Below, piece by piece: positions 6,119 through 14,495 of a DNA stretch of 16,501 nt (position 1 is the first letter of the stretch; each line of letters opens with the position of its first letter). This DNA is from a bacterium (GTDB lineage: Bacteria; CSSED10-310; JAJRTK01). The stretch covers positions 1 through 16,501 of the forward strand of contig JAJRTK010000426.1 of NCBI GenBank assembly GCA_024278345.1, in the 5' to 3' direction. A program made the translations under genes and the position numbers. A model generated the notes under the pieces. It did not search any database, was not told the DNA's origin, and was given only the letters and a program-made list of their open reading frames with translations.

Positions 6119-7041
6119 CGCGGCCTCGTCGGTTGGAAAGTCTGTCCCGCCATGATGGGAACCACCACGGGGCCCAGCTCTTTCGATTTCTTCATCCCGT
6201 TGGGAAAAACTTCTTCGTAGCGGAGCGTCATGCGAACCGCCCGGGGAATGCGGCGAATGGAATAGCGCCGCACGTTCTCGTCCATGAAGTGGAGCGATGC
6301 GCGAACTCCCGTGGCCTCCGACAGCTCATCCAATGCGCCCCAACTTTCGCTCCACTCGCTTTCGATGCTCCCCGTGAGCCGCGAGCGCTCCTGGTACAGG
6401 TATTCAAGCTGGATCGCCCGGATATCCGGGGCCACCACCAGTGTCACACCTCGCTCTTCGTCGAACAGATCCGAGTGGAGCAGCGGCGCCTCCCGCAGCA
6501 TCAACCCCGTGGCCGGGTCCACCCAGTAGCTTGTCTCCTTCAGCCCCGTGAAGACCATTCCCGACGTCAGCGGAGGCGACGTGCTGATGAAGTTCAACCG
6601 ATCCTTGTCCCCAAAGAAGGCCGAGAAGAGCCTTTCCTCCACCTTCGTCCGGTAGCTGTAGGCGCCCCGGATGTCTTCAGCGATGAAATCCAGGAGATGC
6701 CGGATCTTTTCCACCCGTTCGATTCTGCCTTCTCCCCGTTCCCAAGTTTGCATCGTCACGTGGAGGGCTCCCGCAAGAATCCCCGTCAACATCGCGATGA
6801 TGGCCACGGAAAGAAGAACCTCCAGCAAGGTGAAGCCTGCCCTAACCGCGTGATTCCCAACCCGGGATTGCCGATTGCCCATGATGATTGGACACCCTTT
6901 TTTCGTCTTTGGGTTGTGTCTGCTCCCGTCGCTGGCCGTCCGGCCATCGCCAGTCGCCTTTTTGCTACCCGTGATCATCCCGGGAATGCTCAACTCGACT
7001 TCGGGAAGAGCGTGCGAAGCCATGGTTCCCGGGCTTTTCAT
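6115..7041 (-). CDS. gspJ: Minor pseudopilin GspJ with long repeat-bearing leader
   Basis: Minor pseudopilin of the GspI-J-K tip complex. The class III signal is RAG69 followed by FTLLEVLLSVAIIAML, with Glu at mature position 5 (E74). The remaining sequence (RHLLDFIAEDIRGAYS, FGDKDRLNFISTSPP) fits GspJ. Read from the ATG at 7041, which overlaps the gspI stop as ATGA, the leader is 69 residues, far above the usual 5-25. An internal ATG at 6882 (Met54) gives a 16-residue leader (GNRQSRVGNHAVRAG after Met) but has only a weak ribosome site (GGGTGT). Bases 6957-6878 of the leader are a copy of a dispersed hairpin repeat; the ATG at 6882 is inside its end. The true start is therefore uncertain, while the mature protein is not. 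Confidence 0.9.
   Translation of the reverse strand: MKSPGTMASHALPEVELSIPGMITGSKKATGDGRTASDGSRHNPKTKKGCPIIMGNRQSRVGNHAVRAGFTLLEVLLSVAIIAMLTGILAGALHVTMQTWERGEGRIERVEKIRHLLDFIAEDIRGAYSYRTKVEERLFSAFFGDKDRLNFISTSPPLTSGMVFTGLKETSYWVDPATGLMLREAPLLHSDLFDEERGVTLVVAPDIRAIQLEYLYQERSRLTGSIESEWSESWGALDELSEATGVRASLHFMDENVRRYSIRRIPRAVRMTLRYEEVFPNGMKKSKELGPVVVPIMAGQTFQPTRPR
6878..6957 (-). repeat. Dispersed hairpin repeat, copy C, inside the gspJ leader
   Basis: On the minus strand it starts GCGACTGGCG like copy A, has the hairpin TGGCC-GGAC-GGCCA, then GGGAGCAGACACAACCC, an AAAGGGTG segment and ends ATCATGGG as copy A does. In the gspJ frame it reads GDGRTASDGSRHNPKTKKG, clearly parallel to the phrase encoded by copy B. 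The candidate start ATG at 6882 is part of the repeat end. Confidence 0.7.
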
Positions 7042-7679
7042 CGTGACTCCGGGAAGATCGTGCGGATGGTTTGCAGATGGAGGACCCGTTTTTGCCGCGG
7101 CATGGAGACAAAGACCTCCACCAGATAGGTTTGCGGCGCTGGCCCGGCGGCTTGGAACCCTTCTCCGGCGGTCTGCTCCAGCCCCTCGATCTCGTATTCG
7201 GAGACCCGGCTCTCGTACGCGTAGCCGTCGTCGAAGCGCCCCGTCTTTTCCCCTTCTTCCAGAGGCTCTTGGGCCATGAGCTCCCCCATGACGCTCTGCC
7301 CGTAAAAAAGGGCCTAGGAATAGCTCTCGGACGCTTCGGTGGTCAGAAGTCCCGCCTTGAGCAGATCGAAAATGGAGGCAACCGCCAAAGCCAGGATCGC
7401 CATGGCGATGGTGACCTCCAAAAGTGTGAAACCTCTTGCTCCGGAAATATGGACGCGGAAATCCCCTTGGGAACGATTATCGAAAACCGCTTTCTTCCCT
7501 TTGGGTTGAGTTCCGTTCGCGTCGGCGGCAGTCCGTCCGCCGCCACTCACATCTTGAGCGCCCTCAACCCAAGCTTGGGCTCCTGAAAACCAAATCCCAT
7601 CGGAATCCTCTCCAAAACGACGCCAATCCCGTGACCCCGGCGGCGCCTCAAGAACTATAGCCCGCAGTGGACCAGTCAT
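7038..7679 (-). pseudogene. gspI: Minor pseudopilin GspI, interrupted by one in-frame TAG
   Basis: Minor pseudopilin that nucleates the tip complex. Upstream part: ARG83 followed by FTLLEVTIAMAILALAVASI, Glu at mature position 5, ending TTEASESYS. Then TAG at 7316-7314 (codon 122), and in the same frame ALFYGQSVMGELMAQEPLEE to FDDGYAYESRVSEYEIE and YLVEVFVSMPRQ, which looks like the ordinary GspI second half. Without the stop the mature chain would be about 130 residues, normal for GspI. The ATG at 7679 overlaps the gspH stop as ATGA and gives an 83-residue leader holding a repeat copy (7550-7495); the only nearer start is a GTG (codon 44). As read, the product would end inside the N-terminal helix region. 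Explanations: sequencing error, recent nonsense mutation, or suppression of the stop. A separate product from ATG 7289 would lack the prepilin helix. Confidence 0.85.
7495..7550 (-). repeat. Dispersed hairpin repeat, copy B, inside the gspI leader
   Basis: On the minus strand the stem GGCGGC / GCCGCC (7544-7539 with 7529-7524) encloses a 9-base loop, GGACGGACT, one base different from the copy A loop GGACGGATT. The tail is GCGAACGGAACTCAACCCAA. Translated in the gspI frame it reads SGGGRTAADANGTQPKGKK. Similarity to the other copies ends shortly after the tail. Confidence 0.7.
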
Positions 7680-8263
7680 CGCCGATCCTCCTTTTCCAGG
7701 TGGACCCGGCCCGTCACCGGTTCCACAAGAAGGATCATGGCGGGGCCGCCGCTCTTGTGGCGGAGCTGCATCCGGCCCCCCGTGGAGTTGCCCCTTGGAT
7801 AGAACAGAATGTAAGAGACGCCCGATTCCCGCTCGTTTTCCTTGGGACCGAAGGAGAAATAGTCGATGGGGTTCTCTTCGCGGCCCAAAAAGAGCGCCTC
7901 GATCTGGTCCGCAATCCCCTGCTCGATGGCGCCGGCCATGGCGGCGAGGCTCCCCGCCTCCACCCGGTTCGCGCTGTCGTTGTCCAGGTCGATCCGGAGA
8001 CCGTGGACCTTCTTGGAGTTTACCGCCGCCACCCGGGCCAGGCGCAGATCACTGATGAGCTGGGCTGTCTGGCTCCGGAGCTCCCAATTGCGGAGCGAGG
8101 CCGAGATCGACGGGATCACCAGCGAAAGAAGGAGCACGAAGATCGTGAGGACGACCAGGAGCTCAATGAGGGTGAACCCGGCCCCAGCCATCGGTCTGGA
8201 TGGCATCCGATCCCCGTCCATGGCTCTGGATGGAGTCCCGGCCTTTGGAGCGCGGGAGGTCAT
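7676..8263 (-). CDS. gspH: Minor pseudopilin GspH
   Basis: Minor pseudopilin of the T2SS pseudopilus. The prepilin motif is AGAG29 followed by FTLIELLVVLTIFVLLLSLV, with Glu at mature position 5. Downstream are SQTAQLISDLRLARVAAVNS, a helix pattern shared by GspH/FimT proteins, and a C-terminal segment GRMQLRHKSGGPAMILL. ATG at 8263 overlaps the gspG stop as ATGA, so I prefer it to the ATG at 8290, which would overlap gspG by about 30 bases. In-frame Met20 or Met25 could also serve and would give short leaders. The leader contains two near-copies of one phrase (PSRAMDG, PSRPMAG), a small internal duplication. From the chosen start the protein is 195 aa, with a mature chain of about 166 residues. 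Confidence 0.9.
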   Translation of the reverse strand: MTSRAPKAGTPSRAMDGDRMPSRPMAGAGFTLIELLVVLTIFVLLLSLVIPSISASLRNWELRSQTAQLISDLRLARVAAVNSKKVHGLRIDLDNDSANRVEAGSLAAMAGAIEQGIADQIEALFLGREENPIDYFSFGPKENERESGVSYILFYPRGNSTGGRMQLRHKSGGPAMILLVEPVTGRVHLEKEDRR

Positions 8264-8691
8264 TTGTACCGCAATTCTTCGCCGTCGCAACGGCAGCTCA
8301 AGGCGTAGTTGCGGCCTCCATCCTTGGGGCTATAGATGTAAGGCTCGTCCCAGGGGTCCTTGGGAACGTCCGTGACATCCCGGAGGTAAGGGCCGTTCCA
8401 CTTGGAACCGGTGCTTTTGACCAGTCCTTCCAAGCTGTCGGGATAGCGTTTCATGTCGAGCTTGTACATGTCCAGGGCCATGGACATTCCCTTCAACTGG
8501 GCTTTGGCGGTGTCCCTTTGAGCGCCTTGAAGGCGTCTGATAAGGGAGGGACCCACCAAGCTGGCCACCAGGCCGATGATCGCCACGACGATGAGCATTT
8601 CGATAAGGGTGAAGCCGCGTTGGCTCCGGGACTCGGACGCCAGGTTGCCAAGGAGTCCTTGGGGTCTGTTTTGGCGGAACTCTTGGGTCAT
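8260..8691 (-). CDS. gspG: Major pseudopilin GspG
   Basis: Main subunit of the periplasmic pseudopilus. The 143-aa precursor has leader ending SQRG26, then FTLIEMLIVVAIIGLVASLVGPSL with Glu at mature position 5. The family signature follows: ALDMYKLDMKRYPDSLEGL, NGPYLRDVTDVPKDPWDEPY, YALSC. The start at 8691 has GGAG eight bases upstream; the longer open frame reaching 8982 runs through repeats and is not used. The C-terminus (NYALSCRCDGEELRYK) is short: the loop with clustered Asp residues that binds calcium in PulG-type GspG is absent, and two cysteines are present instead. It is the first gene after a 399-bp spacer that contains strong inverted repeats, which could separate its expression from that of gspEF. 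Confidence 0.93.
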   Translation of the reverse strand: MTQEFRQNRPQGLLGNLASESRSQRGFTLIEMLIVVAIIGLVASLVGPSLIRRLQGAQRDTAKAQLKGMSMALDMYKLDMKRYPDSLEGLVKSTGSKWNGPYLRDVTDVPKDPWDEPYIYSPKDGGRNYALSCRCDGEELRYK

Positions 8692-8796
8692 TTTCTGTTC
8701 TCCGGTGGAAGTTGATCTGGCCGAGTTTCTTGGAGCGGCGTTCTTGGCGGGAATCGCGGTTATTGCGGCTTGAGGCCAGGTTTTCCCGCGGACTTG

Positions 8797-8882
8797 GCGA
8801 CTGGCGGCGGACGGATTGCCGCCGCGGGGAGCGGAACGCAACAAAAAAAGTTGAAGGGTGGAATGGATTGTCCCATCATGGG
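8797..8882 (+). repeat. Dispersed hairpin repeat, copy A
   Basis: Begins GCGACTGGCG; the stem GGCGGC (8803-8808) pairs with GCCGCC (8818-8823) around a 9-base loop. Then GGGAGCGGAACGCAAC (8827-8842), an A-rich run, AAGGGTGGAATGG and CCATCATGGG. It shares the start, hairpin, tail and end with copy C. It matches 15 of 16 tail bases with copy D. It lies on the strand opposite to the gsp genes, about 105 bp ahead of the gspG start. Confidence 0.7.
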
Positions 8883-8908: not shown

Positions 8909-9083
8909 CCCGGATTTCTCATCAAATCCCGTCGCGAGGCAGCGCGGACGCGCAGCCAGCGAGTCCGACGACAGGCAGGCACCGGAGGCGTAGTAGAACT
9001 ACGTTGAGGATGCCTGACCGAGGAGGGCGCTGTTGGCTGCGATGATTGCGTTGACGCAGCAGGGATTTGATGAGATTTCCGGG
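8909..9083. repeat. 175-bp long palindrome between gspF and gspG
   Basis: The outer arms, 8909-8930 and 9062-9083, are 22-base inverted repeats with two mismatches. Further nested pairs: CGCAGCCA (8951-8958) with TGGCTGCG (9034-9041), CAGGCA (8976-8981) with TGCCTG (9011-9016), and CGTAGT-AGA-ACTACG (8989-9003) at the tip. The whole can fold into one long imperfect hairpin in RNA or a cruciform in DNA. It begins 7 bp after the gspF stop codon on the transcript. It resembles long imperfect palindromes found as intergenic repeats in many bacterial genomes, though I cannot name the family. Confidence 0.8.
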
Positions 9084-14440: not shown

Positions 14441-14495
14441 TCTCAGGGTTGTGTTCCGCTCCCATCGGTCGCAGCCGCTCCCGCTGCTCGCACAC
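14441..14495 (-). repeat. Dispersed hairpin repeat, copy D, upstream of miaB
   Basis: On the minus strand: stem GCAGC / GCTGC (the palindrome occupies 14471-14487, 7-base loop), then GGGAGCGGAACACAACCC (14463-14446). The first 16 tail bases match copy A at all but one position. The hairpin stem sequence differs from copies A and B while pairing is kept. It is about 165 bp ahead of the miaB start codon, in the miaB sense direction. Confidence 0.6.

Follow-up and report, generated by a model that had tools for sequence, protein, structure and literature searches.

A new MITE family in a bacterium of the CSSED10-310 lineage, most of whose copies appear to retain only a hairpin-and-tail core

The window analysed here, a stretch of 16,501 nucleotides (contig JAJRTK010000426.1 of assembly GCA_024278345.1, GTDB lineage CSSED10-310), carries a gsp operon and a miaB gene with short repeats in the gaps beside them. 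The genes neighbouring these repeats were identified with Pfam, and gspI and gspJ were named by their pilin-type N terminus and operon position. A preliminary description of this DNA had proposed four related hairpin-plus-tail segments, and all four match one covariance model, trained on 41 copies, with 58.7 to 66.9 bits (E of about 1e-12 to 1e-14, with 1.1 Mb searched). The core copies are as follows:

8796-8847, plus strand: core copy A, in the gspF-gspG gap, antisense to the gsp operon (hairpin 8803-8826; tail 8827-8842, an exact match to the tail pattern); covariance model 66.9 bits
7500-7551, minus strand: core copy B, in sense orientation at the gspH-gspI boundary, ahead of the pilin-type gspI start (hairpin 7521-7544; tail 7505-7520); covariance model 61.4 bits
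6908-6958, minus strand: core copy C, in the gspI-gspJ gap, sense (hairpin 6928-6951; tail 6913-6927); covariance model 58.7 bits
14443-14492, minus strand: core copy D, upstream of miaB, where the gap is divergent (hairpin 14464-14485, with a stem of the tandem G.A type; tail 14448-14463, an exact match to the pattern); covariance model 60.9 bits

Copy B falls inside an extended gspI ORF. MITE arms were not detectable at any of the four window copies, and no intrinsic terminator pattern coincides with them. Midway through gspI there is an in-frame TAG stop (7314-7316, minus strand: GAG AGC TAT TCC TAG GCC) with the frame open on both sides, for which a nonsense change, an assembly error or recoding are the options. 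In addition, a second repeat family adjoins copy A at 8909-9083 (about 175 bp, inverted ends CCCGGATTTCTCATCAAATC); it has 11 matches in the 1.74 Mb, several of its copies are flanked by 5-bp duplications (CTAGA, TCAAA and, in two cases, TTAGA), and it looks like another MITE.

Copy numbers of the hairpin-plus-tail family were based on 1.74 Mb of sequence and on whole-genome searches in an assembly of 550 contigs that is 87.9% complete. The host genome of 6.06 Mb holds about 600 core copies, the four segments among them. In 0.43 Mb of blindly chosen contigs, the core HMM gave a density of 98 copies per Mb, and in the 1.74 Mb it gave 223 matches, versus 0 in the same length of reversed sequence. 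The tail GGGAGCGGAACRCAAC, allowing up to two mismatches, was found 626 times genome-wide versus 5 times for the reversed pattern. The preliminary description had placed the family in a cluster at pseudopilin genes; no other three copies lie as close together (within 2.1 kb) anywhere in the 1.74 Mb, yet the clustering is local, with copies spread genome-wide at a median spacing of 4.4 kb.

Beyond the host, the covariance model had no match in seven other genomes of the same phylum, and among 117 genomes, 109 of them from other phyla, tail enrichment is limited to the host's own. No homologues of the element were found in plasmids, and in Rfam the window had no match at the gathering score, nor did two full-length loci at E <= 1. 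Matches in IMG/VR came from four contigs with one identical phage sequence, which has a different hairpin and scores 22 bits, and were taken as chance. For the gsp loci, a comparison with 17 other genomes yielded distant GspF relatives only (<=43% identity), with no core match in those searched. The family is abundant, belongs to a poorly sampled phylum, and had no match in the other genomes covered or in Rfam.

The 52-nt core starts with GGCGAGYRGC, continues into a G+C-rich hairpin whose loop is of the GGAC/GGAU type, and ends in the unpaired tail GGGAGCGGAACRCAAC, downstream of which the sequence is A-rich. Several stem types exist, one of which, as read from the sequences, presents two stem steps as tandem G.A mismatches. 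That pairing is kept while the stems differ, as had been noticed in the four segments, holds across the family: standard pairs make up 75.6% of the stem versus 59.8% in shuffled sequence, and the covariation score is 0.366 versus 0.147 (reached by 0 of 500 shuffles; 0.04-0.09 for shifted partners), the stem changes not being independent events and the covariation being partly inherited between subfamilies. Among 147 distinct copies, both sides have changed in nine of the ten stem pairs, and the basal pair is A-U in 72, G-C in 70, G-U in 3 and unpaired in 2. The tag 5' of the stem varies as well (GTGG in 51, GCAG in 29, GTAG in 28 and others in the rest of 177 copies), and the base at its third position is paired across to the other side of the stem. 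In one core variant the hairpin is longer by 20-25 nt (GGGGAACTCGCGCC...), which gives full-length elements of about 170 bp (variant loci L051:162-236 and L114:4492-4663).

A minority of the core copies have flanks that resemble one another. Using the longest shared unit as query, 40 matches were obtained, most of them full-length. These full-length copies, about 40 in number and 145-148 bp long, have inverted ends GGTGGTGCTC/GAGCACGACC and consist of a 45-nt left arm starting GGTGGTGCTC, the 52-nt core and a 49-nt right arm ending GAGCACGACC, the whole forming one long imperfect hairpin with the core at its centre; several lie at contig ends. Exact 8-bp target duplications flank 13 of the 28 scorable full-length copies and two more have one mismatch, a count whose cross-pair table is inflated at zero mismatches by one empty-flank copy; no exact duplications of other lengths (5-7 or 9-11 bp) were found in these 28. 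Independently of that table, own flank pairs beat cross pairs for the full copies in the genome sample (p = 2e-6). The duplicated sites tend to have a palindromic, GAATTC-like core.

Comparison of filled and empty sites gave two cases, both paralogous and neither orthologous, there being no close relative among the genomes compared: L105:6193-6281 matches the two flanks of the L188 copy put together, with AAAATCCG present once, and next to the L187 copy lies a tandem unit in which AGGATTCC likewise occurs once. The former site sits in a tandem, self-complementary G+C-rich array (GGAGGCCTTCCGGCCTCC, L105:6119-6342). Given the length below 500 bp, the inverted ends, the 8-bp duplications and the two paralogous empty sites, the family is a true MITE, and it is certain that the full-length form represents a new MITE family. 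The suggestion of a small non-autonomous element is therefore borne out by these copies elsewhere in the genome. The ends proposed for it are not: the outer sequence shared by copies A and C, which had been read as the ends of a mobile unit, includes ATCATGGG, present in 3 of 177 copies and not a family end, and their likeness may hint at a shared right arm only.

The core is found far more often than the arms. A single alignment of 29 full-length copies supplied profiles of near-equal length and information content; with these, the core had 170 matches in 1.74 Mb, 130 of them without an arm; the left arm had 33, six without a core, and the right arm 33, two without a core. Cores without arms thus number 130 versus eight arms without cores, several of the arm-only matches lying at the ends of the sequence stretches searched. 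Pairs of arm-less copies share 82% identity in the tail versus 27-32% in the arms, and young pairs with similar arms show no extra tail conservation. Around the arm-less cores a weak consensus extends over 40 nt on each side (0.15-0.18 bits per position versus 0.02 beyond); compared with the MITE arms, it beats 500 of 500 shuffles for the right arm and 489 of 500 for the left, where 11 of 500 were as good. No target duplications above chance were found in arm-less copies, and in an arm-complementarity duplex test the arm-less copies did not score, nor did the full-length positive controls. The simplest reading is that the core-only copies would be old members of the same element and not independent core insertions. 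The window copies, too, likely descend from the full-length MITE, a membership based on the shared core and the weak arm consensus.

Among assignable copies, 155 are intergenic versus 12 genic, in sequence that is 82% coding (the coding fraction and the genic or intergenic calls come from a simple gene caller). In tandem gaps, arm-less cores run with the genes in 57 cases versus 21 against (p = 6e-5). Arm-bearing copies in tandem gaps are oriented 10:8 and the full-length set 5:5, and several young copies lie inside called genes; the young copies being few, their difference from the old ones does not reach significance (Fisher p = 0.16). Where the flanking genes oppose their neighbourhood, core orientation tracks the flanking genes in 15 of 20 cases. 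A replication-strand cause of the bias was considered and is not supported, with GC skew agreeing in 41 of 78 cases. Copy A, antisense to its operon, runs against the apparent trend. As a statistical argument, the orientation bias favours an effect at the RNA level. The other option of the preliminary description, a repeated RNA motif, is likewise upheld by the covarying hairpin and, in old copies, by an orientation bias of the kind typical for RNA-level elements, and both options are supported because each fits a different stage.

Taking these observations together, we consider it probable that the core of this new MITE family has been retained as an element acting in RNA, and that the four window segments are old, arm-less members. 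An intact element of 145-148 bp would be inserted by a DDE-type transposase making 8-bp target duplications. After insertion the arms decay while the hairpin and tail stay. At the RNA level the core could then work as a folded structure between cistrons or in a 5' UTR, binding a protein or an RNase or altering how stable the transcript is. Selection would thereby preserve the cores that face the transcribed direction, in a way comparable to the action of ERIC and NEMIS elements on transcripts. Since most old copies keep the core only, usually facing with the surrounding genes, a present use of the core by the host is suggested, and such a putative role is plausible. A further step is tentative and, in our judgement, rather doubtful: the MITE may have been domesticated genome-wide, hundreds of copies having shed their arms and kept the 52-nt RNA module with its GGGAGCGGAACRCAAC tail in transcribed orientation, to form a regulon-like set of elements in leaders or between cistrons, with a single RNA-binding factor as their probable reader.

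The large excess of core-only over full copies could also mean that the 52-nt core travels on its own, as a REP-like unit mobilised by a RAYT, and that the 146-bp MITE simply captured one. A tag such as GTGG, GTAG or GCAG 5' of the stem fits this, and the genome's only Y1/RAYT-like gene (G000:C390:22510-23235 = L031:1012-1737; NF047646, E 1.4e-18, under the cut-off) has a diverged core copy (36.6 bits) at its 3' end only, where the copy overlaps the stop codon. However, this gene holds two in-frame copies of its own GTAG palindrome, GTAGGGGCGGGTTCCGAACCCGCC, as a protein insertion, GTAG-tagged palindromes being the repeats known alongside RAYTs (PMC3733652). The cores are singletons with rare inverted pairing (1 of 109 neighbouring copy pairs under 300 bp), and their tag is variable, with its third base paired across the stem. 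The arm-less flanks, moreover, retain a consensus matching the MITE arms, and full-length copies carry 8-bp duplications. We thus regard a REP-like core as unlikely. The RAYT is not a likely driver, given its own different palindromes, the unpaired copies and the 8-bp duplications. A DDE-type transposase is the more likely mover because full-length copies leave 8-bp duplications, from which its class is deduced. As for a driving transposase, which the preliminary description had proposed to look for besides a RAYT, or an autonomous parent element, neither was found: no end pair of insertion-sequence length with matching ends is present in the fragmented 550-contig assembly, in which such an absence weighs little. 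Old MITE families do not require an autonomous partner.

It is also conceivable, if improbable, that this is an ordinary MITE without host function, the core being easier to detect or slower to mutate and the bias arising by chance or from an insertion effect. Young copies do insert both ways, several of them within called genes, and the old/young contrast falls short of significance. Against this, the matched profiles still gave 130 core-only versus eight arm-only matches, structure-preserving changes are frequent, and the bias (p = 6e-5) tracks local genes and not skew. A conserved family of cis-regulatory RNAs, of attenuator or riboswitch-like type and without any tie to mobile elements, would account for a covarying hairpin with a conserved unpaired tail in intergenic and mostly sense positions, but we find it hardly credible: about 600 copies lie beside unrelated genes and are absent from relatives, copies come without terminator or Rfam match, and the full-length transposed forms with their duplications contradict it.

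The case for domestication of MITEs in bacteria usually rests on single loci. Here, the presence of young full-length copies together with hundreds of old remnants of the same element in one genome makes post-insertion selection on an RNA module directly measurable, namely which part of the element survives and in which direction.

Among known systems, ERIC/IRU, a 127-bp MITE, is of similar size, forms one long hairpin over the whole element, is intergenic and reaches up to hundreds of copies, and its orientation has been reported as crucial for the effect on transcripts (PMC2229807, PMC10969869). The present family is unrelated to it in sequence and differs in being G+C-rich, with GG ends, 8-bp duplications and most copies reduced to the central core. 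Correia/NEMIS of Neisseria, likewise a MITE, has terminal inverted repeats, and its stem-loops, once transcribed, act on the mRNAs next to them (PMC2229807); its ends and target are different, and the functional part reported there is the long stem and not a central hairpin with an unpaired tail. With REP/REPIN and RAYT systems the family shares a short, G+C-rich extragenic hairpin, a short tag, hundreds of copies and lineage specificity (PMC3733652, PMC3116915), but here the copies are singletons, the tag is variable and partly paired, the conserved 3' tail is long, the full-length copies have 8-bp duplications, and the RAYT of this genome carries other palindromes. The Chunjie MITE also has full-length copies with ends and duplications beside many partial copies lacking both; those partial copies have been described as presumably inactive, whereas the remnant core here is conserved and oriented (PMC10969869). 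By analogy, it is plausible that the family works most like ERIC and NEMIS, as mobile intergenic stem-loops able to affect neighbouring mRNAs. What is distinctive is the scale at which, and the direction in which, the hairpin and tail alone survive.
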